Source: Dysgonomonas mossii DSM 22836
GTDB lineage: Bacteria > Bacteroidota > Bacteroidia > Bacteroidales > Dysgonomonadaceae
Direction of reading: 5' to 3'
Assembly (NCBI RefSeq): GCF_000213575.1
Contig: NZ_GL892004.1
Location: 186,001 to 250,000, forward strand
DNA: 64,000 nt
Position 1 is the stretch's first letter; the number at the start of each line of letters is the position of its first letter. Both the position numbers and the translations under genes were made by a program. Shown piece after piece: positions 8,925 to 26,166 of the stretch. The notes under the pieces were generated by a model that had not been told where the DNA came from, ran no database searches, and worked only from the letters and a program-made list of their open reading frames with translations.

Positions 8925-9815
8925 ATGAAAGTATCAATTATTATAGCTACTACTCTCCTTATGTTAGCCTCTTGCAATCCAAAAGCAGATGCAACTCAGC
9001 AACAAGCTGCACCTGTAAAGAAAGATATTTCTCTACAATTGTACTCGTTGAGAGACGACATTGCTAAAGACTATGATGCAACAATCAAGAAAGCCGGAGA
9101 AATGGGATTCACATCGGTAGAGGCTGCCAACTATGCAGACGGAAAATTCTATGGAAAAACACCTGAAGAATTTAAGGCAAGCATAGAAAAAGCCGGAATG
9201 AAAGTGCTTTCTTCTCATACAGGAAAAGGCCTTACAGAAAAAGAACTGGCTTCTAAAGATTTTACAGAAGCACTTAAATGGTGGGATCAATGTATTGCAG
9301 CGCACAAAGCAGCAGGAATGAAATACATTGTAACTCCATGGATGGATACACCTAAAACATTGAAAGACTTACAAACATATTGTGAGTACTATAACGAAAT
9401 AGGGAAAAGATGTAAAGAAAACGGCATGCTCTTTGGCTATCACAATCACGACTTCGAACTGAAAAATAAGATCGAAGATAAGGTTATGTACGACTACATG
9501 CTAGAAAACACAAACCCTGAATATGTATTCTTCGAAATGGATGTATACTGGGTAGTAAGAGGTGGAAAAAGCCCTGTAGATTATTTCAATAAATATAAAA
9601 ACCGTTTCACTTTGCTGCATATCAAAGACAACAGAGAACTTGGACAAAGTGGTATGGTAGGCTTTGACGCCATCTTCAACAACACTGATGCTGCAGGAGT
9701 TAAACATCTTGTGGTAGAAGTAGAGCAATACAGCTTTACCCCTGAGGAAAGTGTAAAGAAAAGCCTTGACTATTTATTAAATTGTCCTTTAGTAAAAGAA
9801 AGCTACGACAAATAA
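8925..9815 (+). CDS. Sugar phosphate isomerase/epimerase-like TIM-barrel lipoprotein, probable 3-keto-glucal hydratase
   Basis: 296 residues. A short lipoprotein signal ends in LMLASC, then a linker leads into an AP-endonuclease-2-like TIM barrel starting at ISLQLYSLRDDIAKDYDATIKKAGEMGFTSVEAANY. Metal-binding positions are visible as GYHNHDFEL, FFEMDVYWV and LLHIKDN. In the analogous B. thetaiotaomicron cluster the homologue hydrates the 3-keto-glucal made by the DUF1080 lyase. The lipid anchor places it with the DUF1080 protein, not in the cytoplasm. Function by context is likely; the fold is certain. Confidence 0.9.
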   Translation: MKVSIIIATTLLMLASCNPKADATQQQAAPVKKDISLQLYSLRDDIAKDYDATIKKAGEMGFTSVEAANYADGKFYGKTPEEFKASIEKAGMKVLSSHTGKGLTEKELASKDFTEALKWWDQCIAAHKAAGMKYIVTPWMDTPKTLKDLQTYCEYYNEIGKRCKENGMLFGYHNHDFELKNKIEDKVMYDYMLENTNPEYVFFEMDVYWVVRGGKSPVDYFNKYKNRFTLLHIKDNRELGQSGMVGFDAIFNNTDAAGVKHLVVEVEQYSFTPEESVKKSLDYLLNCPLVKESYDK

Positions 9816-9955
9816 GAAAAATTAGATATGCTTTTGTCAGATTGGACGGAGTGGTTTGAAGATCTATTTAGCAAATGTATATTTCTTTAAAGAAATTCTT
9901 CTCTCCGTTCATCATGACAAATCGCATTACGAAGAATAAGCATATAAGCGAATAG

Positions 9956-10924
9956 ATGAACGCAATAATGGCCGACAACGGCTCCTTCTACTACAATATA
10001 CAAGGTAGAGCCGAAGGAACTAGTTATAATATTATATATCAAGATAGTGAAGATAGAGATTTTCAATCTGAAATAGAAGAGCTGCTTGCCAATTTCGAAA
10101 AATCATTATCAGTATATGACAATGAATCCATTATTTCGCGAGTCAACAGAAATGAAGATGTAGAAATAGATGATTATTTCTATACAGTCTTCTCCAGAGC
10201 AAAAGAAATAAGTGCCCAAACAGAAAATACTTTCGACATCTCGGCAGAGCCGCTATTCAGGGCTTGGGGTTTTAGCTCTCAAGACAAATGTCCCCCCAAC
10301 AGAGAGCAGATAGAAGAGATGAGAAAGTATATAGGAATGGACAAAATAAGCATCAAGGACAGACGCATTGTAAAAGATCATCCCAATATTGTATTGAATG
10401 TAAATGCTATTGCAAAAGGGTACTCCGCTGATATTGTAGCTTTATTCTTGGAACAGCATGAATGCCCTAATTATCTTGTAGAGATCGGAGGAGAAATTCG
10501 AGTAAGAGGAGAAAACCCTCATGGCGAAGGCTGGAGAATAGGTATTGACCGTCCATCCGAAAGCAACCTTATTCCGGGACAAGATATGCAAGCTATTTTA
10601 CAAATTACAAATAAAGGAATAGCGACTTCCGGAAATTACAGACAATTTTATATCAAAAATGGAGAAAAAATAACGCATACAATCAATCCGGCAACAGGCT
10701 ATCCGGCACAGCATAATCTACTATCCACAACAGTGATAGCGAACGACTGCCTCACAGCAGATGCCTATGCCACAGCATTTCTGGTTGCGGGAGTAGATAA
10801 GTCGCTGGAATGGATAAATAACAACGCTGAGATTGAGGCTATATTTATCTGTGACGAGGATGGAGAATATAAAATGTACTGTACTCCGGCATTAGAAGAC
10901 AAGATCATTCAAGGAGACGAATAA
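9956..10924 (+). CDS. apbE: ApbE family FAD:protein FMN transferase, lacking a visible export signal
   Basis: 322 residues. ApbE attaches FMN to threonines of respiratory proteins (Nqr/Rnf type), normally in the periplasm. Seen here are QGRAEGTSYNIIY at the start of the fold, LNVNAIAKGYSADIVA, YLVEIGGEIRVRG, ITHTINPATGYPA and the metal-binding TADAYATAFLVAG. Homologues usually carry a lipoprotein signal, but this frame starts with MNAIMADNG and has none. A TAG codon directly precedes the ATG, and the same frame upstream (from 9875) encodes 26 residues that also do not look like a signal. Either the protein is cytosolic or the signal has been lost. The tat genes follow. Confidence 0.88.
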   Translation: MNAIMADNGSFYYNIQGRAEGTSYNIIYQDSEDRDFQSEIEELLANFEKSLSVYDNESIISRVNRNEDVEIDDYFYTVFSRAKEISAQTENTFDISAEPLFRAWGFSSQDKCPPNREQIEEMRKYIGMDKISIKDRRIVKDHPNIVLNVNAIAKGYSADIVALFLEQHECPNYLVEIGGEIRVRGENPHGEGWRIGIDRPSESNLIPGQDMQAILQITNKGIATSGNYRQFYIKNGEKITHTINPATGYPAQHNLLSTTVIANDCLTADAYATAFLVAGVDKSLEWINNNAEIEAIFICDEDGEYKMYCTPALEDKIIQGDE

Positions 10925-11059
10925 GATGCCTTTCTTACTGTGTTAAAAAGAAATAAATATTAAAACATATCCGCTTTGTTAGATATTATTTGTATTATTT
11001 TGTCAACTGAAAACAATCTAACAAAATAATATCATAAAGCACTAAAAAAAACAAAAATC

Positions 11060-11263
11060 ATGAATACCTTATTATTTTTAGGAAATCTGGGAACAGGTGA
11101 AATCATCATCATAGCCATAGTTGTACTTTTACTTTTCGGGGGACGCAAAATACCTGAACTAATGAAAGGATTAGGAAAAGGTATTAAAAACTTCAAAGAG
11201 GGAGTTAAAGGTATAGAAGATGATATAACCGGGGATAACGATACAACAACTAAAAAAGATTGA
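11060..11263 (+). CDS. tatA: Sec-independent protein translocase TatA
   Basis: 67 residues: one N-terminal membrane helix ([14 protein letters not shown]), the conserved hinge [21 protein letters not shown] forming the amphipathic helix, and a charged tail. It forms the pore component that moves folded Tat substrates. tatC starts 14 bases downstream and no tatB is present nearby, as in minimal TatAC systems. TTATTTTG at 10995-11002, one base off the -7 consensus, with TTTG at 10975 is a possible promoter. Two proteins with twin-arginine signals are encoded a few kilobases upstream. Confidence 0.96.
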
Positions 11264-11277
11264 TGTAGTATACTTCT

Positions 11278-12141
11278 ATGGAAGAGAACAGTGGAGGAAT
11301 GTCCTTTTGGGATCATTTAGAAGAACTACGGTGGACCCTTGTCAGGTCTATCATTGCCTTATTTGTTTTTGCGATACTTGGTTTTGCAATCATGCCATAT
11401 ATATACGACAGCTGGATAATGGGTCCTACCCGTGCCGACTTTGTATTGTATAAATATCTATGTTATGTGACATCATCCGTGCCATTCATGCCCGACTTCT
11501 GCGATGATACATTTCATATTAAGATTATAAATTATAATCTTACTTCGCAGTTTTTCAGGCACATGACCACTTCATTCTGGTTTGCTCTAATATTGACATT
11601 CCCATACCTTGCATTTGAAGTGTGGCGCTTTGTAAGCCCTGCTCTCTATTCTAATGAGAAGAAGAGTATCAGATGGGTATTTATGTTCGGAACAGCTATG
11701 TTCTTTATCGGATGTGCTGTAGGATATTTTCTTGTATTTCCTATGACATTCCGATTCTTATCGACATACCAATTAAGTGAGATGATCGAGAATACGATTT
11801 CACTCGATTCGTATATGGATAATTTCCTTACGTTAATATTCATCATGGGAATTGTATTCGAACTACCTTTGGTATCGTGGCTCCTATCTCAATTGGGCTT
11901 TTTAAATAGATCTTTCTTTAAGAAATTTAGAAGACATGCCATTGTTGGACTATTGGTATTATCAGCCATAATCACTCCATCAGGAGATCCATTTACCCTT
12001 TCGGTTGTATTTGTGCCGCTTTATATGCTCTTTGAATTGAGCCGCTTTATGGTAAAACCTGCACCGAAAGAAACGGATGAGGAAGATGAGGATGAGGATG
12101 AGGATGAAGATACTGCCGATATAGAAATAAAGACTTCGTAA
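11278..12141 (+). CDS. tatC: Sec-independent protein translocase TatC
   Basis: 287 residues with six predicted membrane helices. The N-terminus has the receptor motif FWDHLEELRWTLVRS, with the Glu-Leu-Arg that contacts twin-arginine signals, and EVWRFVSPALYSNEKK in the first periplasmic/cytoplasmic loops. TatC recognises Tat substrates and recruits TatA. The tail is unusual: a strongly acidic Glu/Asp run encoded by a GAGGAT-type repeat at about 12074-12110, absent from E. coli TatC. The stop is followed by a strong terminator. Confidence 0.96.
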   Translation: MEENSGGMSFWDHLEELRWTLVRSIIALFVFAILGFAIMPYIYDSWIMGPTRADFVLYKYLCYVTSSVPFMPDFCDDTFHIKIINYNLTSQFFRHMTTSFWFALILTFPYLAFEVWRFVSPALYSNEKKSIRWVFMFGTAMFFIGCAVGYFLVFPMTFRFLSTYQLSEMIENTISLDSYMDNFLTLIFIMGIVFELPLVSWLLSQLGFLNRSFFKKFRRHAIVGLLVLSAIITPSGDPFTLSVVFVPLYMLFELSRFMVKPAPKETDEEDEDEDEDEDTADIEIKTS

Positions 12142-12214
12142 TAGTAAATATTACTTGGGAGAGAAATCATCAAAAGAATCTGCATTTCTATTAAAAGATA
12201 AAATATCGATAAAT

Positions 12215-12247
12215 AAAAACCCCGATTGGTAACCAATCGGGGTTTTT
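12215..12247. terminator. Bidirectional intrinsic terminator between tatC and pnp
   Basis: Perfect 15-base inverted repeat (AAAAACCCCGATTGG at 12215-12229, mirrored at 12233-12247) with a TAA loop. A-tract on one side and T-tract on the other let it stop transcription from both converging genes. Confidence 0.92.
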
Positions 12248-12272
12248 ATTATATATAAGATTTCTTATGCGC

Positions 12273-14444
12273 TTAAGCCTCTGCCGGAGCATCTCCGTTT
12301 GCCTTCTGTACAGGTCTTTCCGGTCTTGGAGGACGAGGAAGAAGAACCTTACGAGATAGTTTAAACTTACCTGTCTTAGGGTCGATATCGATGAGTTTCA
12401 CCTCAATCTTATCACCTTCTTTCAATCCTACTTTTTCCATATCTTCTACGCGATCCCACGAAATTTCAGAGATATGAAGCAATCCGTCTTTTCCTGGAAG
12501 GAATTCACAGAACGCACCGTAAGGCATTACCGAACGTACTTTTGCAGTATACACCTCTCCTACTTCGGGTACAGTAACTATTCCTCTAATCTTAGCCATT
12601 GCAGCGTCGATAGCAGTTTTGTTAGTAGCTGAAACTTCAACGCGTCCATAACCATCAATCTCTTCGATAGTAACAGTTGCTCCTGTTTCTTCCTGAATAC
12701 CTTGAATGATTTTACCTCCGGGTCCTATTACAGCTCCGATAAATTCTTTGCTGATAATTAGCACTTCGATACGTGGAGCATTTTCTTTAAAGTCGGCACG
12801 TGGTTCAGGTAATGTCTCAAGGATTTTACCCATAATATGTAGACGTCCTTCACGAGCCTGATTTAATGCCTTTTCTAAAATCTCATAAGAAAGTCCGTCT
12901 ACTTTTATATCCATCTGAGTAGCCGTAATACCATCTTTTGTTCCACAAACCTTGAAGTCCATGTCTCCTAGATGATCTTCGTCACCCAAAATGTCTGAAA
13001 GCACAGCAAAGTTAGTACCTTTCTTTTCAGAGATAAGCCCCATTGCTATACCTGTCACCGGCTTTTTGATTTTCACCCCTGCATCCATTAATGCCAATGT
13101 ACCGGCACAAACTGTAGCCATAGATGAAGAGCCGTTCGACTCCAATATATCTGATACCACACGTATAACGTAAGGATAATCGGAAGGGATCATTGGTTTC
13201 AATGCACGGTGTGCCAGATTTCCATGACCGATTTCACGACGACCTACTCCTCGTTGTGGTCTTGCGTCTCCTGTTGAGAATGGAGGGAAATTATAATGTA
13301 GAAGGAATCTCTCCTTACCATTGTTCAATACATCATCAATGATCTTCTCATCAAGCTTTGTACCTAATGTTACAGTTGTCAATGATTGTGTTTCACCACG
13401 TGTGAAAACAGCCGATCCGTGAGCTCCCGGAAGATAATCTACTTCGCTCCAGATAGGACGTATCTCTGTTGTTGTACGACCATCAAGACGTTTTCCTTCG
13501 TCTAAGATAGAACGACGCATCGCTTCTTTTTCTACATCATGGTAGTAACGAGAAATCAATGCACCTTTTTCTGCAAGCTCTTCCTCAGTAAGGTTGGCTT
13601 TATATTCTTCTTCTATAGCCTTGAAGTTATCTACACGCTCATGTTTGTTTGTATTTCCTGATGCTGCTACAGCATAAGCTTTATCATAGCATTTTTCCCA
13701 AACGTCTTTACGTAGATCTTCATCATTTGTTTCGTGGCTATATTCACGTTTTTTTGTAGTACCAACAAGCTCCATCAATTCGATCTGAGCCTGACATTGT
13801 ACTTTTATTGCTTCGTGAGCAAACTTGATAGCTTCCAGCATTTCTACTTCCGAAACTTCTTTCATTTCTCCTTCTACCATCATGATGTTATCAATAGTAG
13901 CACCTACCATGATGTCCATATCAGCTTTAGCTAATTGAGAAAATGTTGGATTTAAAATGAATTGTCCGTCAACACGAGCTACTCTCACTTCGGAGATAGG
14001 ACCATTGAACGGTATATCTGAAACAGCTAAAGCTGCTGAAGCTGCCAATCCGGCCAATGCATCAGGCATATCTTCACCGTCTGAAGAGAATAGAGTCACA
14101 TTAACAAATACTTCCGCATGATAATCGTCCGGAAACAATGGACGAAGGGCACGGTCTACCAAGCGGCAAACCAATATTTCGTAATCTGAAGCACGTCCTT
14201 CTCGGCGTTGAAAACCTCCCGGGAAGCGGCCATATGCTGCAAATTTTTCTTTATACTCTACCTGTAAAGGCATAAAATCAACACCCGGATTTGCATCTTT
14301 TGCGGCACATACAGTGGCTAATAACATCGTATTACCCATCCGTACCATTACAGACCCATCAGCCTGTTTTGCCAATTTTCCGGTTTCAATGGTGATAGTC
14401 CTTCCATCACCTAAATCGATACTCTTTGTAATCGGATTAATCAT
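12273..14444 (-). CDS. pnp: Polynucleotide phosphorylase
   Basis: 723 residues with the start at 14444 ([20 protein letters not shown]). PNPase degrades RNA 3' to 5' with phosphate and is a core degradosome enzyme. Order of domains: first RNase PH domain, all-alpha linker, second RNase PH domain ([32 protein letters not shown]), KH domain ([23 protein letters not shown]) and S1 domain ([21 protein letters not shown]). An upstream in-frame ATG at 14558 would add 38 residues, but they resemble nothing in the family and the candidate promoter lies inside that stretch, so it is rejected. Ends at a terminator shared with tatC. Confidence 0.97.
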
Positions 14445-14474
14445 AAATTTTTTTCTTAACGTCTTAAAATCAAA

Positions 14475-14482
14475 CAAAGGTA
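14475..14482 (-). promoter_or_regulatory. -7 promoter box for pnp
   Basis: TACCTTTG on the minus strand matches TAnnTTTG exactly, 31 bases before the chosen pnp start. It supports the 14444 start, because the longer frame would begin upstream of it. Confidence 0.6.
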
Positions 14483-14644
14483 AGTAAAGTTTTTGAAAAT
14501 TAAGGGAATGGAGATCGAAAACTCCACTCAAGAAAGCGAAATACAATAATAATATCAAGGTTTTCTTTTAGTTAATTTCACTCATCTACTCATCGGTTTA
14601 AGCTCACTATTCGTATTCTAGGATTATTCTGATAATAAAAAATA

Positions 14645-14660
14645 TCACTACATCTAGTGA
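14645..14660 (+). promoter_or_regulatory. Candidate operator upstream of the TonB receptor-hemN operon
   Basis: TCACTA (14645-14650) and TAGTGA (14655-14660) form a 6-base dyad with a 4-base spacer. It lies immediately upstream of TTG at 14661 (a -33-like position) and about 24 bases before the -7 box, where a regulator would block or assist polymerase. The regulator is unknown; an iron- or heme-sensing one would fit the genes. Confidence 0.4.
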
Positions 14661-14683
14661 TTGACTGTTGTTTTAAGTTTTCA

Positions 14684-14691
14684 TACATTTG
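14684..14691 (+). promoter_or_regulatory. -7 promoter box of the TonB receptor-MFS-hemN operon
   Basis: TACATTTG matches TAnnTTTG exactly. TTG at 14661-14663 is 20 bases upstream, an acceptable -33 element. The receptor start codon lies 42 bases downstream. Confidence 0.65.
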
Positions 14692-14733
14692 CAGCTCAAC
14701 TAAAAACTATAAATATCAACACATTAAGAAATA

Positions 14734-16830
14734 ATGAGATCAAAGTCTTTTCTTTTGTTGACCCTCTTATTCTGTGCCATTATCAATAATACTTATGCTG
14801 ATGATATTGTCATTGACAATGATACTATCAAAATGAAATATACAGCAAAAGAGGTTGTAATAGAATCATTTAAGCAAAACAGTGATTTATCGATACAACC
14901 TGTCTCAGCATCCGTTCTATCTGAAAGTATTATTAAAGAAAATAATATAACTAACATAAAAGAGGTGACGGCTTTTGTGCCTAACCTATTCATGGTAGAC
15001 TATGGTTCTAAAATGTATTGCCCGGTTTTTATACGAGGAATAGGTGCCGCAAAAAACACGCCTTCTGTAGGGCTATATGTAGATGGAGTCCCTTATTTCG
15101 ACCGCTCAACGTTTGATATAAACATCAGTGATGTAGACCGCATTGAAGTTCTGCGAGGGCCACAAGGAACTATCTATGGCAGAAATACGATGGGGGGCAT
15201 TATTAATGTTTTCACAAAATCCCCATTAAAGACAAAAGGAACTTATTTGAATCTCTCCGCCGGCAATTACAATGCCTATCAGACCGGAATTTCGCATTAT
15301 GGAAATGTAGATAATAAAGTAGGCTATTCACTATCCGGTAATTATTCCCATTTGGGAGGCTACTTTATGAATAAAACCACAGGAAAACGAGCCGACCCGA
15401 TCGATGGTGTTTCTACTCGTGCCCGACTAAGCTGGCGCATTATGCCACGGCTGACGATGAACCTTATTTTTGCTTATGAATATTCCGATCAGGATGGTTA
15501 CCCTTACCGTATCTATGATAAGAAAACAGGCAAAATAGAAGATATAAATTATAATGAACGAAGCTTCTACCGTCGCAATATGTCTAACAATGGACTGAAT
15601 ATAGAATATGTTACAGATAATTTCAAACTGAGTTCGCAATCTTCTTTTCAGTTTTATGATGGGAAACAAGGTATCGATCAGGACTTTTCGCCCAAAGACC
15701 TTTACTACGTAAATTTCTATCATCGTCAGCAAATGTACTCTCAGGAATTCAATATCAAATCAATAAAAGAAGACAGCAAGTATAAATGGCAGTTTGGAGT
15801 ATTTGGATTCAACCAGAATTATTTCCAAACAAACGATACTGACTACCGCACATCAGGAAAACATGCAATCCAAAATGTAAACAATCCGACCGAAGGAATC
15901 GCCCTATATCATCAGTCTACTTTGAATGATATTTTCATCCCGGGATTATCAGCTACTCTTGGGATTCGCTACGACTGGGAGAAAACAAAATCTTCATTGA
16001 TACGCATCACTGCAAATCCGAATGTAGAACCTGTTGTCGATCCCGAAGTAAAGGCTAAGGACGATTTTTCTCAAATTACACCAAAAGCATCTATCCAATA
16101 TGCGTACAGTCAGGATGGATTGACATATTTATCTGTAAGTAAAGGATATAAAACAGGAGGTTTCAACAATACGGCCGATGAAGATAAAGACCGTACGTTT
16201 GATCCTGAATATAGCTGGTCTTACGAATTAGGAACAAAATCAAGCTTTCTGAACAACTTGCTTTATCTCGACTTCAGCCTCTTTTATATTAGATGGAGCA
16301 ACCAACAAATTTCGCAGGTTAAACCCACAGGACAAGGCTTTTTGACTCGCAATGCAGGTAAATCGGAAAGCAAAGGCTTTGAATTGACAACTCAGATAAA
16401 CCCTTCGAGAAATCTGAACTTCCAGATAGCCTATGGCTATACGCATGCTAAATACAAAGAGTATAAAGAAAGTGAGACAGTAAATTATAATAATAATTAC
16501 TTGCTCATGGTGCCTAAACATACATTGGCGATATCTGCAAATTACACCATAGACACAAACCTGAGATGGCTCGACAATGTTGTGCTTAACGCTCAATATA
16601 CAGGAGTAGGCAAATTATATTGGAATGATGCCAACGATGTAGAACAACCATTTTATGGAGTGTATAATGGGAAAGTTTCTTTCGTTAAAAAACAATTTTC
16701 ACTAGATTTGTGGGCTAAAAATATAGGAGCTAAAGATTATATCGCATATTACTTCGCAACATCAGGTAATAATTTTGTACAAAAAGGGAAGCCTTTCACA
16801 TGTGGATTAAATCTGAACCTTAAATTCTAA
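14734..16830 (+). CDS. TonB-dependent outer-membrane receptor (siderophore/porphyrin type)
   Basis: 698 residues with a signal peptide (MRSKSFLLLTLLFCAIINNTYA). The plug has a possible TonB box (EVVIESF), IRGIGAAKNTPSVGLYVDGVPYFDR, and VDRIEVLRGPQGTIYGRNTMGGIINV. The barrel follows and ends in LNLNLKF. It lacks the SusC N-terminal extension and resembles FyuA/pesticin-type receptors, so a small iron chelate or tetrapyrrole is more likely than a glycan. The stop is one base before the start of an MFS permease, and hemN follows, so the ligand probably feeds heme metabolism. Ligand identity is inference. Confidence 0.92.
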   Translation: MRSKSFLLLTLLFCAIINNTYADDIVIDNDTIKMKYTAKEVVIESFKQNSDLSIQPVSASVLSESIIKENNITNIKEVTAFVPNLFMVDYGSKMYCPVFIRGIGAAKNTPSVGLYVDGVPYFDRSTFDINISDVDRIEVLRGPQGTIYGRNTMGGIINVFTKSPLKTKGTYLNLSAGNYNAYQTGISHYGNVDNKVGYSLSGNYSHLGGYFMNKTTGKRADPIDGVSTRARLSWRIMPRLTMNLIFAYEYSDQDGYPYRIYDKKTGKIEDINYNERSFYRRNMSNNGLNIEYVTDNFKLSSQSSFQFYDGKQGIDQDFSPKDLYYVNFYHRQQMYSQEFNIKSIKEDSKYKWQFGVFGFNQNYFQTNDTDYRTSGKHAIQNVNNPTEGIALYHQSTLNDIFIPGLSATLGIRYDWEKTKSSLIRITANPNVEPVVDPEVKAKDDFSQITPKASIQYAYSQDGLTYLSVSKGYKTGGFNNTADEDKDRTFDPEYSWSYELGTKSSFLNNLLYLDFSLFYIRWSNQQISQVKPTGQGFLTRNAGKSESKGFELTTQINPSRNLNFQIAYGYTHAKYKEYKESETVNYNNNYLLMVPKHTLAISANYTIDTNLRWLDNVVLNAQYTGVGKLYWNDANDVEQPFYGVYNGKVSFVKKQFSLDLWAKNIGAKDYIAYYFATSGNNFVQKGKPFTCGLNLNLKF

Positions 16831-16831
16831 T

Positions 16832-18082
16832 ATGGGAATAAACATTCAAAAAGGAGAAAAGCTATTTACATTCTTTTGCCTGTACATTGCACAATCGATA
16901 CCGATGAGTTTCTTCTCTACGGTGATACCTGTAATTATGCGGCAACAAAACTTCTCGCTCGAAAGTATAGGTATGCTCCAATTGCTAAAACTCCCTTGGA
17001 TACTAAAATTCCTATGGTCTCCTGCGGTAGACCGTTCCACATTTAGAATAGGTGATTTTAAAAGATGGATTTTCTCCTCAGAATTAATATATGCATCCAT
17101 CATATTTGCGGTCTCATTTCTCGACTTTCAAACCACACCTTATCTTATTATTGGACTTGTAGTATTATCTTTTATCGCTTCAGCCACACAAGATATTGCA
17201 ACCGACTCGCTTGCTGTTCTGTCTTTTAGCAAAAAGGACAAGAGCCTTGCAAACAGCATGCAGTCGATGGGAAACTTTGCAGGTGCTATGATTGGCAGCG
17301 GCATATTATTGTTACTCTATCATAAATTCGGGTGGGGAAATCTATTACCATTCCTTGCTGTATTTGTGATTATAGCTCTGATCCCTCTAATATTTTTCAA
17401 GAGAGGGCATAACCAAGTAATCATAAAAGCAAAACAAGAGAAGAAGCCAACCCCGGACGATCTTTTTGGCTTTTTCAAACAAAAAGGTATCTGGAAACAG
17501 GTCTTCTTCCTATTTGTATATTATGCAGGACTTATTGGTGTGTTAGCCATGCTAAAGCCTATGCTGGTAGATTATGGCTACAATATGAAGGAAATAGGTG
17601 TCATGTCGGGGATTGTGGGTACATCCATCGGCTGCCTAGCCTCTTTTGGCGGTGGCTTTATCGTTCGAAAAATAGGCAGACATTTCGCACGGATATTGTT
17701 TGCTGTTTTCACATTGATGACTACTATTTATTTCTGCCTGTTAGTATCTGCTCTTCCGGTAAATATAGCAACTCTGCATTTGGGTATCTCGTTACTTTGG
17801 GCAAGTTACGGCATGGCCGTTATTGTTGTATACACCACAGCTATGGACTGTGTGCGCCCCGGATTTGAAGGAACAGACTTCACAATACAAACTGTGATTA
17901 CACACCTGAGTGGGATTATTATGGGAGTAAGCTCCGGCAAAATAGCAGCAATGATAACATACAAGGGACTCTTTGTTGTGGAAATGTGTATCGCTGCAAT
18001 ATCTCTGGCATTTATATTATTTGCCTTCAAACTTAAAGCACCGAAAGAACAAAATGAAACAAGAATTACTGAACAAATATAG
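16832..18082 (+). CDS. MFS permease, AmpG / RhtX-FptX-like
   Basis: 416 residues, 12 predicted membrane helices. The motifs LLKLPWILKFLWSPAVDRS and SFIASATQDIATDSLAVL are typical of the AmpG-like MFS branch, which includes both muropeptide permeases and the single-component siderophore importers RhtX/FptX/YbtX. With a FyuA-like receptor one base upstream, the siderophore or porphyrin importer role is more likely than muropeptide recycling. The 3' end overlaps hemN by 29 bases, showing tight coupling. Confidence 0.88.
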   Translation: MGINIQKGEKLFTFFCLYIAQSIPMSFFSTVIPVIMRQQNFSLESIGMLQLLKLPWILKFLWSPAVDRSTFRIGDFKRWIFSSELIYASIIFAVSFLDFQTTPYLIIGLVVLSFIASATQDIATDSLAVLSFSKKDKSLANSMQSMGNFAGAMIGSGILLLLYHKFGWGNLLPFLAVFVIIALIPLIFFKRGHNQVIIKAKQEKKPTPDDLFGFFKQKGIWKQVFFLFVYYAGLIGVLAMLKPMLVDYGYNMKEIGVMSGIVGTSIGCLASFGGGFIVRKIGRHFARILFAVFTLMTTIYFCLLVSALPVNIATLHLGISLLWASYGMAVIVVYTTAMDCVRPGFEGTDFTIQTVITHLSGIIMGVSSGKIAAMITYKGLFVVEMCIAAISLAFILFAFKLKAPKEQNETRITEQI

Positions 18083-19421
18083 TCTCCCGGTTCCAAGATA
18101 TACGAGTTATCCTCCGGCTAACTTTTTTAATGAATCATTTACTGCCGATTCATATAAGGAAGCTATTATCGAATCGAATAAACAAAATCCTCAGCATATA
18201 TCCATCTATATACATATCCCTTTTTGCTATCACATGTGCTATTATTGCGGCTGCAATTCACAGCTGCTCAAAGACAAGAATGTGGTAAAAGAGTATATAG
18301 AAACCTTGAAAAAGGAGATACGGATGGTGCTTCCCCTACTCGACCATAGTCGTAAAATATCACAAATACACTATGGCGGAGGAACACCCACGTCACAACC
18401 TGTCTCCGTACTAAAAGAAATCAACCGGATAATCTTATCCGAATTTGAATGCATCGAAAATCCGGAAATTGCAATAGAGTGTCATCCCGGATATCTGGAT
18501 GAAGACTATTGGAATGATCTGATTAATGCAGGATTCAATCGAATAAGCATTGGCATTCAAGATTTTAACGAAGAGGTTTTGAAGGCTTCCGCCCGTAAGC
18601 CATCACGAATGGCGATAGAGGATATAATACACATACTCAGGAGTAAAGGTATATCTGTAAATATGGATTTTATATACGGACTGCCTCTACAAACTCCTGA
18701 ATCCTTTGCAGAAACTATCCGAAAAGCAATATCCCTCAAGCCGGACAGGATCGTCACTTTTTCTTACGCCCATGTTCCTTGGGTAAATGAGTTGCAAAAA
18801 AATCTCGAAAAAGTAGGCTTGCCATCAGTCTCTACAAAAAACGAAATATACGAAACAGCTAAGAAATTGCTGATAGATGCAGGATATAAAACGATAGGGC
18901 TCGACCACTTTGTATTAGCAAACGACGAGCTATACGAGGCTTTACAGACAAAATCACTGCATCGCAACTTTCAAGGGTACTGTACCCGCCGCACTACAGG
19001 TCAGGTTTATGCATTCGGAAATACCGGGATCAGCCAGCTATCTACAGCTTACAGCCAAAATGCAAAAGACCTGAACACATACATGTCATCCGTAAATGAG
19101 AGTAAGTATCCCATAACTAAAGGGTATATACTGAATAAGGAAGAGCAAATTACCCGTGAAGTAATTGCTTCACTAATGTGTAACTATACAGTAAGTTGGT
19201 CGGATATAGCACGTCGGATGAATATCTCTGAAAAGGAAGTAAGAAATGCTCTAAATTATAACAAAGAGCAGCTCTGTGATTTTCAAAAAGATGGAATTAT
19301 CGAATTTTCGGAAGATTACATTACTGTATTGCCGGAGGCTGCACCCTTTGTCCGCAATGTTGCTGCTTCGTTGGATAAACTGATGGTAAATAACGAGAAA
19401 CGTTATTCCAAATCGGTATAA
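18054..19421 (+). CDS. hemN: Oxygen-independent coproporphyrinogen III dehydrogenase
   Basis: 455 residues, the size of E. coli HemN. Start at 18054 (MKQELLNKYSLPVPRYTSYPP); an ORF extension upstream is only frame overlap with the permease. Radical-SAM cluster cysteines C58, C62, C65 plus C67 follow the HemN pattern CxxxCxxCxC, and RYTSYPP is a HemN hallmark that HemW lacks. IHYGGGTPTSQP binds SAM, and the HemN C-terminal domain (ITREVIASLMCNY) is present. It converts coproporphyrinogen III to protoporphyrinogen IX. In an operon with an outer-membrane receptor and a permease, it may act on imported precursor. Confidence 0.95.
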   Translation: MKQELLNKYSLPVPRYTSYPPANFFNESFTADSYKEAIIESNKQNPQHISIYIHIPFCYHMCYYCGCNSQLLKDKNVVKEYIETLKKEIRMVLPLLDHSRKISQIHYGGGTPTSQPVSVLKEINRIILSEFECIENPEIAIECHPGYLDEDYWNDLINAGFNRISIGIQDFNEEVLKASARKPSRMAIEDIIHILRSKGISVNMDFIYGLPLQTPESFAETIRKAISLKPDRIVTFSYAHVPWVNELQKNLEKVGLPSVSTKNEIYETAKKLLIDAGYKTIGLDHFVLANDELYEALQTKSLHRNFQGYCTRRTTGQVYAFGNTGISQLSTAYSQNAKDLNTYMSSVNESKYPITKGYILNKEEQITREVIASLMCNYTVSWSDIARRMNISEKEVRNALNYNKEQLCDFQKDGIIEFSEDYITVLPEAAPFVRNVAASLDKLMVNNEKRYSKSV

Positions 19422-19426
19422 TAAAA

Positions 19427-19455
19427 AAATGGCTTCAATAATTTTGAAGCCATTT
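19427..19455. terminator. Bidirectional terminator between hemN and fabG
   Basis: AAATGGCTTCAA (19427-19438) pairs with TTGAAGCCATTT (19444-19455) across a 5-base loop, with A-runs upstream and T-rich sequence downstream. It lies between two converging genes. Confidence 0.85.
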
Positions 19456-19476
19456 CTATTTTGATACAATATGTTT

Positions 19477-20217
19477 TTACATACCTCCTGTAACAGGAAT
19501 AACTTCTCCTGTAACATAAGCAGACAAATCCGATGCAAGGAATACAGCAACATTAGCTACATCCTCAGGTGTTCCTCCACGACGTAACGGAATTTGTTCT
19601 GCCCATTTTTTCTTTACATCTTCAGACAATACTCCGGTCATTTCTGTAATGATGAATCCCGGACAAATACAGTTTGCACGAACATTTCTCGAACCCAGTT
19701 CTTTTGCTACAGATTTAGCCAAACCAATCATCCCTGCTTTAGATGCAGAATAGTTAGCTTGTCCGGCATTACCGTTAAGACCAACTACGGAACTCATATT
19801 TATGACATTTCCGCTCTTTTGCTTCATAAAGATCGGAGTAAGTGCATGGATAAAGTTGAATGCAGACTTTAGGTTTATATTGATTACCATGTCCCATTGC
19901 TGTTCAGTCATACGCATCAACAGTCCGTCACGGGTAATCCCTGCATTATTTACAAGAATATCTATCTGTCCGAAGTCTTTTGCAATTTCTTCTACCACTT
20001 TATGAGTGTCTTCAAAATTTGCAGCATTAGATGCATATCCTTTTGCTTTCACTCCAAATTTAGCAATCTCTGCTTCAGTCGCTTTTGCATTGTCATCTAT
20101 AGCTAAGTCAGTAAATGCAATATTTGCTCCCTGCTCTGCAAATTTAAGTGCGATGGCTTTACCTATACCACGAGCTGCACCTGTAATAATAGCGGTTTTA
20201 CCTTCTAGTAATTTCAT
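19477..20217 (-). CDS. fabG: 3-oxoacyl-[acyl-carrier-protein] reductase
   Basis: 246 residues, a classical short-chain dehydrogenase. The cofactor motif TGAARGIGKAIA is near residue 12, NNAGITRDGLLMRMTEQQWD near residue 90, the catalytic Ser-Tyr-Lys appear in NMSSVVGLNGNAGQANYSASKAG, and the end AYVTGEVIPVTGGM is typical of FabG. It reduces 3-oxoacyl-ACP with NADPH in fatty-acid synthesis. It lies 37 bases after a tetR-type gene on the same strand and is likely controlled by it. Confidence 0.94.
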   Translation of the reverse strand: MKLLEGKTAIITGAARGIGKAIALKFAEQGANIAFTDLAIDDNAKATEAEIAKFGVKAKGYASNAANFEDTHKVVEEIAKDFGQIDILVNNAGITRDGLLMRMTEQQWDMVININLKSAFNFIHALTPIFMKQKSGNVINMSSVVGLNGNAGQANYSASKAGMIGLAKSVAKELGSRNVRANCICPGFIITEMTGVLSEDVKKKWAEQIPLRRGGTPEDVANVAVFLASDLSAYVTGEVIPVTGGM

Positions 20218-20254
20218 AATTTAAAGTATAAATTAAATTTATATAGTTTACAAT

Positions 20255-20848
20255 CTACTTTTTCTTCTTCTTGATTCCTTCAAAGATAAGGTAAGCAATA
20301 TTTTCTCTTTGCGATTCGGTTTGCAGGCTCTCTGCTCTAATCTGCCCTCTGATGTAAGGTACTTCCAATCCTTTGAGCGCATGGTGAAGTATTTCGGCTG
20401 TAGCTTGAGTGTCGGGCATTTCGAAAGTGCCCTCTTCTACTCCTTTGTTCAAAATATCTTTTAATACCTGAATCTCTTTTCTATCAAACGATTTCCTTAC
20501 ATTTTGCACACGCCAGATATCACGGAAGAAATCAGCTTTCAATGTACCATTCCTTGCCACAACATTTTTCACTGTATCAAATCGCGTATAAAAAAACAAA
20601 AGAAGTTTCTCGTCTGCAGGAAGATTCTTATTTGCTACAGTCTGCAAAGCATGGAACATCTGATCGAGCTCCGTCTCCAGAACCGCCTGATACACTTCAT
20701 TCTTATTATTGAAATATGTATATAGTGTTCTCCGCCCTTTGTGCGAAGCTACTGCAATATCATTCATGGTGGTATTTTCCACCCCCAACCTTGCAAATAG
20801 CTGACGAGCTACATCTATCAGGATATTTCGGGTTTTGTTTATGGCCAT
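20255..20848 (-). CDS. TetR family transcriptional regulator
   Basis: 197 residues. The N-terminal helix-turn-helix reads TRNILIDVARQLFARLGVENTTMNDIA, then KGRRTLYTYFNNKNEVYQAVLE, the standard TetR DNA-binding domain. The C-terminal ligand domain is not specific. It is the first gene of a two-gene unit with fabG, suggesting control of fatty-acid synthesis by an acyl ligand, as with FabR/FadR-type TetR proteins (inference). A perfect palindrome overlapping its own -7 box indicates autorepression. Confidence 0.93.
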   Translation of the reverse strand: MAINKTRNILIDVARQLFARLGVENTTMNDIAVASHKGRRTLYTYFNNKNEVYQAVLETELDQMFHALQTVANKNLPADEKLLLFFYTRFDTVKNVVARNGTLKADFFRDIWRVQNVRKSFDRKEIQVLKDILNKGVEEGTFEMPDTQATAEILHHALKGLEVPYIRGQIRAESLQTESQRENIAYLIFEGIKKKKK

Positions 20849-20851
20849 AAA

Positions 20852-20890
20852 CTAAATTTGCACACAAATATTACAAGTGTGCAAATTTAG
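20852..20890. promoter_or_regulatory. Palindromic TetR-type operator overlapping the tetR-fabG promoter
   Basis: CTAAATTTGCACAC (20852-20865) is mirrored perfectly by GTGTGCAAATTTAG (20877-20890) with an 11-base spacer. It begins 4 bases before the tetR start codon. On the minus strand the distal arm contains TAAATTTG (20882-20889), an exact -7 box, so a protein bound here would occlude the promoter. Confidence 0.8.
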
Positions 20891-21066
20891 CATAAAAATA
20901 TTGAATACATAAGATTTTCCTTTGGTTTTATAACTTTTAGGAATTTTATACATACAGGATAAGTATAAATCTACTCAGACTTTTTCATACTGTCGACTGC
21001 GTATATATCAATAGCAAATGCTAAATATAATCAAAATAGACAAGTTATTACCGGAGGTTCTAAGGG

Positions 21067-21858
21067 TCAAAAACCTCTCTGTCTCATCGCCTCGAACGTT
21101 AGGATAGCAGTAGAAACAGACACATTGAGCGAATCGATCTTGCCCCTCATCGGAATCTTTACACGATAGTCAGCATTATCGAGCCAAAAGAGAGTCAGAC
21201 CATCGGCTTCTGTACCCATGACGATAGCGGAGGGTTTAGTAAAATCAGTATCCTGATACCATTGTGAAGCGTTTAGTTCAGCAGCATACGCTTTTATATT
21301 TCTGCTTCTCAAATAGCTCAATGCTTCCTGAGATGTACAAACGGCTGTCTGCACAGTAAAAACACATCCTACGCTAGAGCGTATTGCATTCGGATTATAG
21401 ATATCAGTAGCTGGATCGCAAACAATTACAGCATCAGCTTGCGCTGCATCGGCCGTACGTAGAACGGCACCTAAATTGCCGGGTTTTTCTACAGATTCGA
21501 GTATAATAAGGAACGGGGTATCTGAAAGTTTAAGATCTGTCAACGTATGACCTTTGGGTTTAGCCAAAGTTAAAAGTCCGTCTGAGCCTTCACGATAGGC
21601 TATTTTTTCGAAAACGGCTTCCGAAACTTCAAATTTTTTATTGTCAGATATAGATTCAAGAACATGGGGATAATCTGTTTTCACAAACAGTTCGGGACAT
21701 ACAAACACCGAGTCAACCTCATAGCCCGCCATCAGAGCAAGATTTAATTCCCTAGCTCCTTCTATTATAAATAAATTTTGCTCTCTTCGTTCTTTTGCTT
21801 TCGAAAGCTTTACAATATTTTTTATCCTTGTATTTTGCAGGCTGACAATTTTTTCCAT
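21067..21858 (-). CDS. TrmH/SpoU family RNA 2'-O-methyltransferase
   Basis: 263 residues. An N-terminal substrate-binding domain (IVKLSKAKERREQNLFIIEGARELNLAL) precedes the SPOUT knot fold: ILESVEKPGNLGAVLRTADA (motif 1), AIVMGTEADGLT (motif 2) and KIPMRGKIDSLNVSVSTAIL (motif 3). It methylates a ribose 2'-OH in rRNA or tRNA; which position cannot be told. It is transcribed divergently from the lipoprotein gene at 21986, each with its own -7 box. Confidence 0.93.
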   Translation of the reverse strand: MEKIVSLQNTRIKNIVKLSKAKERREQNLFIIEGARELNLALMAGYEVDSVFVCPELFVKTDYPHVLESISDNKKFEVSEAVFEKIAYREGSDGLLTLAKPKGHTLTDLKLSDTPFLIILESVEKPGNLGAVLRTADAAQADAVIVCDPATDIYNPNAIRSSVGCVFTVQTAVCTSQEALSYLRSRNIKAYAAELNASQWYQDTDFTKPSAIVMGTEADGLTLFWLDNADYRVKIPMRGKIDSLNVSVSTAILTFEAMRQRGF

Positions 21859-21882
21859 TATATCCTAATTGTTATCATAATG

Positions 21883-21890
21883 CAAAAATA
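21883..21890 (-). promoter_or_regulatory. -7 promoter box for the SpoU methyltransferase gene
   Basis: Minus-strand TATTTTTG matches TAnnTTTG exactly, 25 bases before the start codon. Confidence 0.55.
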
Positions 21891-21923
21891 AGAATTAATT
21901 ACCGACAAAATCCTGTTATTTTA

Positions 21924-21931
21924 TACCTTTG
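21924..21931 (+). promoter_or_regulatory. -7 promoter box for the DUF5715 lipoprotein gene
   Basis: TACCTTTG matches TAnnTTTG exactly, 55 bases before the start codon. With the minus-strand box at 21883-21890 it makes a compact divergent promoter. Confidence 0.55.
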
Positions 21932-21985
21932 TAAGCTTTATTAGACAATCAATTTATATATACAACTCTAAACGATAATTATTTT

Positions 21986-22642
21986 ATGAGATATATCTGG
22001 ATGCTTTCCGTTGGTATTCTATTCTTAATAAGTTGCAGCACAAAAGGAAAAAATAAAGAAGAGGTTCCAACCGAGCCAAAGAAATATACTCGTTTCAACG
22101 GGAATTACAATCTCACATTCAACGATTTACCCGACTTACACATAGAGGCTGCCGAAGCAAACGGCGTTGGGCCTTTGGAGACAAGAGCAGATACGGCATT
22201 ATATCAAGACAAGCTTGTACGTATCCCAATCGAACTGGATATCTACCGTGTTGATAAGCTTACACACTCAATGCCTTTTCTAGTTCCTAAAGCAGCAAAT
22301 TTACTATCCGAAATCTGTATCAACTTCAGAGACTCACTCATTAGTAAAAAAATGCCGCTTTATAAGCCGATCATTACGAGCATAACACGTACCAATGATG
22401 ATGTAAAAGGCCTAAGCAGAAGAAATAGAAATGCAAGTGATAATTCTGCGCATCGCTATGGAACAACAATAGATATAGCGTGGACACGATTTGACAAAGT
22501 GAACCCAACAGACAGTCGGGTTTTGGACGACGGCAGGCTAAAAGCCATATTGGGGCAGGTTTTGCATGATCTGCATGAACGCGACAGGTGCTATATAAAA
22601 CATGAGAGAAAACAATCTTGCTTTCATATCACGGTAAGATAA
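21986..22642 (+). CDS. DUF5715-like lipoprotein with M15/DD-carboxypeptidase-type motifs
   Basis: 218 residues with a lipoprotein signal ending FLISC. The C-terminal half has SAHRYGTTIDIAW, matching the SxHxxGxxxD zinc motif of M15/VanY D,D-carboxypeptidases, and ends in SCFHITVR, whose histidine fits the third zinc ligand. The upstream segment SLISKKMPLYKPIITSITRT also fits the fold. It may trim or bind peptidoglycan peptides in the periplasm, but some relatives are only annotated DUF5715 and activity is unproven. Confidence 0.8.
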   Translation: MRYIWMLSVGILFLISCSTKGKNKEEVPTEPKKYTRFNGNYNLTFNDLPDLHIEAAEANGVGPLETRADTALYQDKLVRIPIELDIYRVDKLTHSMPFLVPKAANLLSEICINFRDSLISKKMPLYKPIITSITRTNDDVKGLSRRNRNASDNSAHRYGTTIDIAWTRFDKVNPTDSRVLDDGRLKAILGQVLHDLHERDRCYIKHERKQSCFHITVR

Positions 22643-22676
22643 TTTTTAAATAAGCAATTAGCCGACTGCTAAAAAT

Positions 22677-23429
22677 ATGAGACGCTACTTTATATACCTT
22701 GCATACAATGGAGAGAATTACTGTGGTTGGCAGATACAGCCGAATGGCGTATCGGTACAAGAAGCCATAGAAAAAGCTCTCACAACGCTACTGCGTACTC
22801 CCATAGCAATAGTGGGTGCAGGGCGTACCGATGCGGGTGTACATGCGCGAATGATGGCAGCACATTTTGACTATGAGGCTGCAAATCTTGATTTGCCCCT
22901 TCTCGCAAAAAAACTAAATAGCATACTCCCCAAAGATATTTCGATATATAATATTGTAGAGGTAAAACCCGATGCTCACGCACGTTTTGATGCAACAAGC
23001 AGACTATACAGGTATTATATCACTACAGAAAAAGATCCTTTCCTGTATCATTTGAAATATAAAGTACATGGAAATCTTGATATAGATAAAATGAACGCAT
23101 GTGCTGATATCTTATTCGAATATGAGGATTTTACGAGTTTTAGCAAGTTGCATACCGATGTAAAGACCAATAATTGTACTATTCTCGCTGCACAATGGGA
23201 GAAAAAAGGCAATGATTACATCTTCACCATCAAGGCAAATCGCTTCCTGCGCAATATGGTACGCTCCATAGTGGGCACATTGCTGGAAGCAGGAAAAGGA
23301 AAGATAGATTCGGGAGAAATGCGAAGGATTATAGAAGCTAAAAACAGAGGTGAAGCCGGAATATCCGTTCCGGGGCATGCTCTTTTTTTAGAAGAAATAG
23401 AATATAATAATGATATTTTTATACAATGA
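22677..23429 (+). CDS. truA: tRNA pseudouridine(38-40) synthase TruA
   Basis: 250 residues. [20 protein letters not shown] opens the enzyme, and [19 protein letters not shown] holds the catalytic aspartate (GRTDAGVHA). [11 protein letters not shown] and [23 protein letters not shown] are further TruA signatures. It isomerises uridines 38-40 in the anticodon stem. Its stop overlaps the nhaA start (ATGA), so the two are translationally coupled. Confidence 0.97.
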
Positions 23430-24595
23430 GAATAAATATTCTTAGCGGCAGGACATTAAGAGGGTTCATGGAAAGTGAAAAGTCAGGAGGGCTTGTGCTT
23501 ATCGTTTGCACAATCGTCTCCATACTTTTGGCAAATTCATCATGGATCGGAGAACAATACAGAAGCATCTGGGAATTTGGAGTAGGAAGCCATAGCGTTG
23601 CCGAATGGATAAACGATGGTTTGATGGCGGTATTCTTCCTATTGGTAGGACTTGAACTTATACAGGAAATATACGAAGGAGAGCTGTCTAATATAAAACG
23701 TGCGATGCTGCCCATATCCGGCGCATTAGGCGGCATGTTAGTACCGGCAGGTATTTATATGTTTCTCAACCATGGCACACCTACCCTATCGGGTTTTGGT
23801 ATTCCTATGGCTACTGATATTGCTTTTGCATTGGGTATTTTATCCTTGTTGGGCAATCGTGTGCCTACTTCCTTAAAGGTATTCCTCACAGCTCTGGCTG
23901 TTATTGATGATCTGGGCGCAATTATCGTAATTGCCATATTTTATACATCCTCTCTATCGTGGGTCAGCTTGCTGATGGCTTTAGGAATATTTGCTCTTTT
24001 ATTATTATTGAATAAAAAATTCTATGTGTATAATATGATCCCTTACATTGTGGGGGGGATCTTCATGTGGTATTTTATGCTCAACTCGGGTGTACACGCC
24101 ACTATTGCAGGGGTATTATTAGCTATAACTATTCCTTTCAAGAAAGGAGAGAAGAAATGTATGTCGAATCGTTGGCAGCACTTTTTGCACTATCCTATAG
24201 CTTTCGGAGTATTACCTTTGTTTGCTTTGGCCAATACAGCAATGATTATAGAAGGAAACTGGGATCAGTCGATAGGTGAACCTTTCGCACAGGGTATCCT
24301 GCTAGGGCTCATTGTAGGAAAACCAATCGGAATCACTCTCTTTAGTTTTATCTTTGTGAAAACAGGTATTTGTGCCTTGCCAAGAGGAATCAATTGGAAG
24401 GGGTTATTGGGTGCCGGCATGCTTGGAGGAATCGGATTCACAATGTCCATTTTCATTACCCTCCTTGCCTTCGATGATATACATTATATCAACGAATCAA
24501 AATTGATGATACTGCTGGCATCGTTGGCTTCAGGTATTATTGGTTATACATGGTTAAACTTCGTCATGAAAAAAGAAAGAGAACGAATTTCATAG
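23426..24595 (+). CDS. nhaA: Na+/H+ antiporter NhaA
   Basis: 389 residues, 12 predicted membrane helices. [23 protein letters not shown] opens the protein, and [20 protein letters not shown] contains the paired aspartates of the ion-binding site (D163/D164 in E. coli). The C-terminus [12 protein letters not shown] is family-typical. It exchanges internal Na+ for external protons at alkaline pH. The start overlaps the truA stop. Confidence 0.97.
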
Positions 24596-24613
24596 ATAAT
24601 AAGATTTAAATAA

Positions 24614-25513
24614 ATGTGGCTAGCTCTCGCCTTTGTTTCAGCGTTCTTTCTTGGATGCTATGATATTTGTAAAAAAAAATCAGTAGATAGAAATGCAGTA
24701 ATCCCCGTATTGTTTCTTAACACACTTTTTTGTTCCTTACTACTGCTTCCGCTGGTGGTTATATCAAAGATATCACCCGATTCGCTGTATGGAACAATCG
24801 GATATGTACCGTCCGTTTCGATAGAAACTCATGGATACATCTTTGTAAAGTCTGTTATTGTACTTACATCATGGATATTCGGCTATTTCGCCATAAAACA
24901 TCTTCCTCTGACAATTACAGGGCCGATAAACGCTACACGCCCCGTTATGACTCTGGTGGGAGCATTGTTGATATTCGGTGAGAGACTAAATCTATATCAA
25001 TGGATAGGAGTGATTATCACTATTATTTCATTTTTCCTGTTATCTCTTTCGGGCAAAAAGGAGGGAATCAGCTTTCACAAAAACAAGTGGATATTCTTTC
25101 TGATTTTGGCTGCTATAGCCGGTGCAGCAAGCGGGCTATATGACAAATTTCTGATGCAGAAATTTAGTTCTACCGCAGTTCAGTTCTGGTTCAACTCGTA
25201 CCAATGTCTACTGATGCTGATCGTGATGGTTGTACTATGGTATCCTAAAAGGAAGAATAATACTCCCTTCAGATGGAAATGGAGTATCATTCTGGTTTCT
25301 GTTTTCCTTACGATAGCAGACTTTGTGTACTTCTATGCCCTTACAGACCCGGATGCAATGATCTCAATCGTATCTATGGTAAGGCGCAGCAGCGTGCTTG
25401 TTTCTTTTGCCGGAGGAGTACTCTTATTCCATGAAAAAAACTTAAAAGGAAAAGCGATAGACCTTGTTTTAATAATCATAGCAATGTTTTTCCTATATTT
25501 GGGGACAAAATAA
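24614..25513 (+). CDS. EamA/DMT family transporter
   Basis: 299 residues with ten predicted membrane helices in two EamA repeats (LPLTITGPINATRPVMTLVGALLIFGERLN and, in the second half, DPDAMISIVSMVRRSSVLVSFAGGVLLFHEKNLKGKA). Drug/metabolite transporters export small metabolites; the substrate is not evident. It is 18 bases after nhaA and 11 bases before the next gene, in a same-strand run from truA. Confidence 0.88.
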   Translation: MWLALAFVSAFFLGCYDICKKKSVDRNAVIPVLFLNTLFCSLLLLPLVVISKISPDSLYGTIGYVPSVSIETHGYIFVKSVIVLTSWIFGYFAIKHLPLTITGPINATRPVMTLVGALLIFGERLNLYQWIGVIITIISFFLLSLSGKKEGISFHKNKWIFFLILAAIAGAASGLYDKFLMQKFSSTAVQFWFNSYQCLLMLIVMVVLWYPKRKNNTPFRWKWSIILVSVFLTIADFVYFYALTDPDAMISIVSMVRRSSVLVSFAGGVLLFHEKNLKGKAIDLVLIIIAMFFLYLGTK

Positions 25514-25524
25514 TTCGATACAAA

Positions 25525-26166
25525 ATGAGAAAGTTTATACTTGCAATTATTATCATATTGAGCATTGTTTCCGGAGTTTCGGCTCAGGATCTGAAAACAA
25601 TTTTTCTTGCTATGCCCGAAAACATGATTACAGGACTCGATGCAGCCGGAAAAGAGAAACTGCTTTCCAATCCGAATGATACTACAGGCATTACAGCTCC
25701 AAGGGGTTCTTTTGGAGAAGTAGAAAGAATTAGTATTTCTTCTGATTACATATCTCTGCAAACTTCCGAGGCAGGAACAGTTCAGATAAAACTCTTGCCT
25801 TTGATAAACGAGTCGAAGATAATTTGCGTTGTGAAGACTGTTTGTGGAAAAGCGTGTGACAGTCAAATACAGTTTTATACTACACAGTGGTTTCCGATAC
25901 CTCAAAATGATCTGTTTCCGAAGATAAACAAGGATACTTTCATTATAGCAAATACAGACAAGAATAGCCAAGAATTTCGCAACGCTTATGCAGCACTGGA
26001 TATGAATCCGATAACAATAGATCTTTCGCCCGACAGCACATCGTTAGAAATAAGTTACGATATAGAGAATTATCTTACCGTCGAAGATTACAAGATGATA
26101 GAGCCTTTCCTTATAGAAAATCCTAAACGCTATACATGGGATAAGCTCTCTTTCAAGCCCGAATAA
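25525..26166 (+). CDS. DUF3256 family secreted protein
   Basis: 213 residues with a cleavable signal peptide (MRKFILAIIIILSIVSGVSA-Q). Bacteroidetes-specific family of unknown function. The conserved features LDAAGKEKLL, GEVERISISSDYISLQTSEAGTVQIKLLPL, CVVKTVCGKACDSQIQFYTTQW are visible, including a cysteine pair that could form a disulfide in the periplasm. It ends 4 bases before the rsmE stop of the opposite strand. Confidence 0.88.
   Translation: MRKFILAIIIILSIVSGVSAQDLKTIFLAMPENMITGLDAAGKEKLLSNPNDTTGITAPRGSFGEVERISISSDYISLQTSEAGTVQIKLLPLINESKIICVVKTVCGKACDSQIQFYTTQWFPIPQNDLFPKINKDTFIIANTDKNSQEFRNAYAALDMNPITIDLSPDSTSLEISYDIENYLTVEDYKMIEPFLIENPKRYTWDKLSFKPE

Follow-up and report, generated by a model that had tools for sequence, protein, structure and literature searches.

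A TonB receptor-permease-HemN operon of Dysgonomonas mossii with a probable role in the import of a heme precursor

A stretch of 64,000 nucleotides from Dysgonomonas mossii DSM 22836 (the window) carries a gene for HemN directly behind genes for a TonB-dependent receptor and an inner-membrane permease. What does this pair carry, and why is it joined to an enzyme of heme synthesis? The earlier note on this DNA had proposed the uptake and use of a coproporphyrin-like precursor. The proposal is supported by the loss of HemE and HemB from the genome, by the presence of HemH and by comparative data, from which we infer the ligand. That this ligand belongs to the heme-pathway tetrapyrroles appears very likely, and the operon probably imports coproporphyrin(ogen) III specifically and finishes it to heme. 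The features of the locus are as follows.

14661..14692, + strand, possible promoter: TTG at 14661-14663, 20 bases, and a -7 box TACATTTGC at 14684-14692 (sequence pattern)
14734..16830, + strand, TonB-dependent outer-membrane receptor, 698 aa, FyuA-like (PF00593, PF07715; best solved relative FyuA, 4epa)
16832..18082, + strand, MFS inner-membrane permease, 416 aa, RhtX/FptX/AmpG-like (TIGR02718 at 163 bits, PF07690, AmpG solved structures)
18054..19421 (ATG at 18054), + strand, predicted HemN of 455 aa, an oxygen-independent coproporphyrinogen III dehydrogenase (TIGR00538, alignment to 1olt)
19425..19457, either strand, stem-loop that separates HemN from the convergent SDR gene and resembles a terminator in both directions (consensus scan)

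Layout of the operon and identity of its products

The open reading frames are as the earlier note described them, with a gap of 1 base between receptor and permease and an overlap of 29 bases between permease and HemN. A PNPase gene on the opposite strand lies upstream of the receptor and a convergent SDR gene lies downstream of HemN, so that the operon comprises three genes here. The box at 14684-14692 was assigned with what we take to be the Bacteroidota-type -7 promoter consensus; short AT-rich boxes of this kind can occur by chance. A TAnnTTTG box is found 50 bases 5' of the receptor ATG, and at 37-60 bases in many, not all, related loci. The stem-loop scan gave 7 terminator-like sites in the region versus 3.3 expected from shuffled sequences, and an Rfam scan of positions 9000-26000 gave no match.

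Of 30 short related loci that were fetched, 26 carry the receptor-permease-HemN trio, which indicates that the arrangement is not due to chance, and a permease/HemN overlap of at least 23 bases recurs in many related loci. Among the departures, the permease has no receptor gene next to it in two loci (L019 and L021), a third stops at a contig edge (L024), and in genome G006 (L025/L122) HemN is on a different contig from the permease. Named Dysgonomonas relatives of the permease show 69-86% identity to it. The two closest named relatives (91 and 88% identity) come from draft assemblies named Prevotella, whose HemN and permease group among Dysgonomonas in the trees. The Parabacteroides/Tannerellaceae loci L125-L127, L130, L133-L135 and L160 carry an additional, more distant TonB receptor gene directly 5' of the operon receptor.

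The HemN product is a predicted coproporphyrinogen III dehydrogenase. Its full-length match to TIGR00538 scores 458.7 bits, above the curated cut-off of 324.95, and its score against the HemW model TIGR00539 (156.2 bits) lies under the cut-off of 205.4, which bears out its earlier designation as a true HemN and not HemW. Its alignment to E. coli HemN (1olt, 299.6 bits) covers residues 5-444, almost the whole length. A CX3CX2CXC motif, presumably the cluster motif expected of HemN, begins at residue 58, and the residues matching E. coli E145, F310 and Q311, which we take to be important, are conserved. ChuW/HutW proteins are HemN relatives, and a HemN that is a remnant or a moonlighting radical SAM enzyme, for example in anaerobic heme degradation, would be in keeping with the 163.6 bits scored against TIGR04107. 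This is very improbable, as the cut-off of that model is 400 whereas the HemN cut-off is exceeded, the three residues are retained, and oxidase genes co-occur with HemN.

The names FyuA-like and RhtX/FptX-like hold as statements of nearest relative (120.7 bits to 4epa and 163 bits to TIGR02718, respectively), but not as family membership. The receptor scores 170.3 bits against TIGR01783 (TonB-dependent siderophore receptor; cut-off 223.5), and the permease stays under the curated cut-off of 356.15 for the RhtX/FptX siderophore transporters. The two proteins therefore resemble a siderophore pair and are not assignable as its members. These closest relatives would suit a pair that imports the ferric siderophores of other organisms, with HemN co-regulated in an iron/heme regulon. 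Furthermore, the nearest characterised transporters carry siderophores or muropeptides, which counts against porphyrin import. The scores under the siderophore subfamily cut-offs argue the other way and, together with the gene linkage and distribution given below, make iron uptake unlikely. The receptor is also under the cut-off of the B12 receptor model, and its 56.8 bits against TIGR01785 (TonB-dependent heme receptor) are far under the cut-off of 316.85. The latter score argues against a broad import through the pair of heme, of protoporphyrin IX or of porphyrin mixtures, with HemN serving a minor coproporphyrin fraction only, a reading for which the reported requirement of Bacteroides for PPIX or heme (in a passage of PMC4696147) can be adduced.

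Heme pathway genes and distribution of the permease

The earlier note had pointed to hemA-hemE, hemG and hemH as the genes that bear on its proposal. In a profile search of the window's genome (3.95 Mb assembly, 99.99% complete) that covered HemE and HemB of the early steps, neither was found, in agreement with the note's proposal. HemH is present once (G000:C3:707352-708305), and HemN is a single-copy gene (search at E <= 1e-60). Since HemE and HemB are absent and HemN and HemH are kept, the substrate of HemN should come from outside. In the place of hemG, canonical HemY and HemJ were not found, and the candidate is a diverged HemY-like protein.

In the import of coproporphyrin(ogen) III that we favour, the TonB receptor would take up four-carboxylate coproporphyrinogen III or coproporphyrin III from neighbouring microbes across the outer membrane, and the MFS permease would pass that porphyrin through the inner membrane; both the inward direction and the redox state of the ligand are what we infer. 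HemN would convert coproporphyrinogen III to protoporphyrinogen IX, the diverged HemY-like oxidase encoded elsewhere (P0004) would convert this to protoporphyrin IX, and HemH would insert the iron. The reduced form would be ready for HemN and stable without oxygen; the oxidised form would require an additional reductase. HemN requires reduced porphyrinogen and exported porphyrin is usually met oxidised, which counts against this scheme.

The permease was found in 42 of 81 genomes (E <= 1e-20). Without G059 (61% complete), HemN is present in 46 of the remaining 80 genomes and HemE in nine above the cut-off of 302.95, the sub-threshold matches to the HemE model reaching 109.3 bits at most. Permease genes are found in 37 of the 38 genomes with HemN and without HemE, versus one of the eight with both (Fisher test, p about 1e-6, relatedness of the genomes ignored). 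The genomes are related, as the trees show, and these counts therefore stand for a few evolutionary events and not for 46. The HemE-lacking exception, G001, is 51% complete and has no permease ahead of HemN on its contig. The HemE-bearing carrier of the permease, G061, is 79% complete, with an adjoining receptor match of just 59 codons and HemE on a separate contig. Iron uptake would not predict such a pattern of the permease with the absence of HemE among the HemN-bearing genomes.

Among the 34 genomes without HemN, only four have the permease (in two, the contig stops behind it) whereas 14 have HemH, so that presumed users of PPIX or heme mostly manage without the permease; this reduces an import of heme or mixed porphyrins to an improbable alternative. 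Two genomes bear on it from the other side: in G079 (L065) and G095 (L138), the permease adjoins HemY and the genome has no HemN match, which suits entry of protoporphyrin(ogen). For these two, entry at protoporphyrinogen is possible. HemH is also without match in G079, and L138, a short contig of a draft assembly, starts at the permease. Against the import that we favour count this lack of HemN and HemH in G079 and the six of the 46 HemN-bearing genomes in which HemH gave no match, including the near-complete G011, G035 and G052. Genome G036, which also counts against it, has a permease homologue (L066:6815-8029, 45% identity) with neither a receptor nor a linked heme enzyme, and its HemY is on a separate contig.

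HemB was considered as a marker of heme synthesis and dropped. In the named set, six of the 42 genomes covered have it (L125 left out), and among the 80 it occurs in four permease-bearing genomes (G004, G014, G048 and G061); both counts weigh against the import scheme. In G014 and G048, of the Dysgonomonas family, HemB belongs to hemL-hemA-hemB sets (L178 and L179; gene names read by eye) and HemE is absent. The G048 set adjoins sulfate-assimilation-like genes, also named by eye. These gene sets suggest siroheme synthesis in both genomes.

The linkage with heme enzymes extends across lineages. In the 63 loci of the named set, HemN lies directly 3' of the permease in 46, HemE is linked in eight (one of them, L153, also with HemN adjoining HemE), HemY only in one, and no enzyme in eight. 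The last are L123, L145, L157, L164 and L165 (contig ends or fragments, the L165 permease fragment being on a short draft contig), L151 and L152 (TonB-MFS-HemD-like) and L122. Beyond Dysgonomonas the usual order is TonB-MFS-HemN-HemY, the set recurring in Dysgonomonas, Parabacteroides and some Bacteroides, with exceptions to that order in L136, L139, L140, L149, L150, G029, G035, G042 and G048. A HemD-like gene follows this order in L144, and HemH is close to the operon in L062, L063, L064 and L068. Partners of this kind (HemE, HemN, HemY, sometimes HemH or HemD-like) argue against iron uptake and fit the import of a heme precursor.

Oxidase candidates and the HemE-linked branch

No canonical HemY above the cut-off was found in Dysgonomonas, and HemJ (PF03653) reached its cut-off in none of the 32 of 81 genomes searched. 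PF12724, a broad flavodoxin model for flavodoxin-type HemG, matched 30 of the 32 genomes searched. Its best match in D. mossii (47.9 bits) resembles an ordinary flavodoxin and was rejected as the missing oxidase. Stronger matches (79-104.6 bits) occur in six genomes, including G003 and G014 of the same genus, whose flavodoxin-like genes (L087, 94.9 bits, and L086, 104.6 bits) possibly encode a flavodoxin-type HemG. The candidate that we retain lies outside the window, about 134 kb from the operon.

G000:C1:67702-68913 (L098:3700-4914), - strand, P0004, diverged HemY-like Amino_oxidase protein, 404 aa

P0004 is present in 23 of the 80 genomes. The 46 HemN-bearing genomes comprise 22 with HemY, 22 with P0004, two with neither (G001 and G004, 51 and 71% complete) and none with both. 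Thus, P0004 occurs in 22 of the 24 genomes with HemN and without HemY, and in no genome with HemY. In the remaining P0004 genome, G020, HemN was not seen and the contig stops inside the permease. Two P0004 genomes lie beyond Dysgonomonas, G035 and the HemE-bearing G063 (34% identity), and HemN, permease and P0004 are all absent from G017 (98% complete). Relatives of P0004 adjoin the receptor gene on the opposite strand in 10 loci of eight genomes, and one lies 1.3 kb 3' of HemN in L124.

Against the HemY model TIGR00562, P0004 scores 77.0 bits in one partial stretch (cut-off 97.85). The predicted model of its L104 homologue, built from a nine-sequence alignment (pLDDT 85.9), was compared with PDB chains, and the best seven were PPO/CgoX chains (2ivd, E 6e-26, TM 0.83 by query), with monoamine oxidases from rank 8. 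Monoamine oxidases share this fold, and the fold alone therefore leaves the function of P0004 unfixed. The model and the distribution support P0004 as a candidate protoporphyrinogen oxidase of Dysgonomonas.

One Prevotella/Xylanibacter clade in the permease tree comprises 11 loci (L151-L159, L161 and L163). All 11 genomes have HemE (nine above the cut-off of 302.95 and two slightly under it, 296.9 and 292.2), which adjoins the receptor in eight and HemN in three (L168, L169 and L173). A HemD-like gene, called by a PF02602 scan in two of the loci, lies directly 3' of the permease in 10 loci, and the eleventh stops at a contig edge. HemE-TonB-MFS-HemD-like operons of Prevotella and Xylanibacter ruminicola were found in L154, L155, L156, L158, L159, L161 and L163. 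HemN is a single-copy gene in all 11 genomes and has HemY adjoining it (in L173 cut by the contig end). HemB is present in one of them, G115 (Prevotella sp. MA2016), where hemL-hemB-hemD-hemA-like genes lie together (L177; hemB by model, the rest by eye) and the HemE-TonB-MFS set (L159) is also found; early genes beside an import operon count against a strict rule of complementarity.

On the basis of this gene content, with HemB as the one other early gene searched, HemE and the permease in the clade can be read as entry one step earlier in the pathway. In the tree, the permeases linked to HemE in seven loci group together with support, and midpoint rooting places this group and the Prevotella-type clade inside the HemN-linked permeases. 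Basic residues are found in 11 of 11 clade permeases and in none of 65 others (G275H, W323K, Y326H and K53 as H), these four being picked from 26 listed differences within what is a single clade. They might be what an eight-carboxylate ligand needs. The clade receptor shows no parallel gain of basic residues, and R231 is lost. Tentatively, and with somewhat more doubt than confidence, we suggest a modular salvage of precursors in Bacteroidales, in which a carboxylate-tuned receptor-permease lineage would be joined to the first enzyme kept (HemE for uroporphyrinogen, HemN for coproporphyrinogen and HemY for protoporphyrinogen). If so, gut and rumen communities would share porphyrinogens as a common good, and the protoporphyrinogen oxidase of Dysgonomonas would belong to a subfamily that has not been recognised so far.

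Relation to known systems

For many gut Bacteroidota heme is growth-limiting, and heme is what the uptake systems in the papers cited here import. Import of an intermediate, if true, would explain the isolated late enzymes kept in gut Bacteroidota and make porphyrinogen cross-feeding testable genetically. Bacteroides, Prevotella and Porphyromonas are described in a passage of PMC6460266 as being without most ring-synthesis genes, and its authors state there that HemH homologues are absent from Bacteroides and Prevotella. Use of coproporphyrinogen and uroporphyrinogen by ferrochelatase-bearing bacteria is stated in a passage of PMC8699415, citing Caldwell et al. 1965 and another paper, and coproporphyrins appear as growth factors for a Leucobacter in part of PMC11139205. 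No bacterial coproporphyrin(ogen) importer was found among the matches listed from the open-access literature, a coverage outside which most subscription papers lie.

The operon is like an RhtX/FptX permease with a FyuA/FptA-type TonB receptor in having one MFS permease, one receptor and the nearest sequences; it differs in its tie to heme-pathway enzymes and in scores under both siderophore cut-offs. The P0004 family is like the HemY/CgoX protoporphyrinogen oxidases in predicted fold, whereas its identity to the solved PPOs is about 15%, and P0004 itself, with 404 aa, is under the TIGR00562 cut-off. Porphyromonas gingivalis retains only HemD, HemN, HemG and HemH of the pathway, according to a passage of PMC13227078. 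The terminal heme genes of such heme-auxotrophic Bacteroidota, as far as described there, are alike in that the early pathway is lost and late enzymes are kept; the operon described here, in contrast, couples the enzyme to a receptor and a permease, while the comparison with P. gingivalis concerns the retained enzymes only.

The last comparison is with tetrapyrrole use by Bacteroides ruminicola, which reportedly grew on copro- and uroporphyrinogen in work attributed, at second hand, to Caldwell in 1965. The likeness lies in copro- and uroporphyrinogen as tetrapyrrole sources, so far as that report is relayed. B. ruminicola offers a phenotype without genes, and the Xylanibacter ruminicola loci with a HemE-TonB-MFS-HemD-like set (L156, L161 and L163) may provide the candidate genes for this rumen phenotype.
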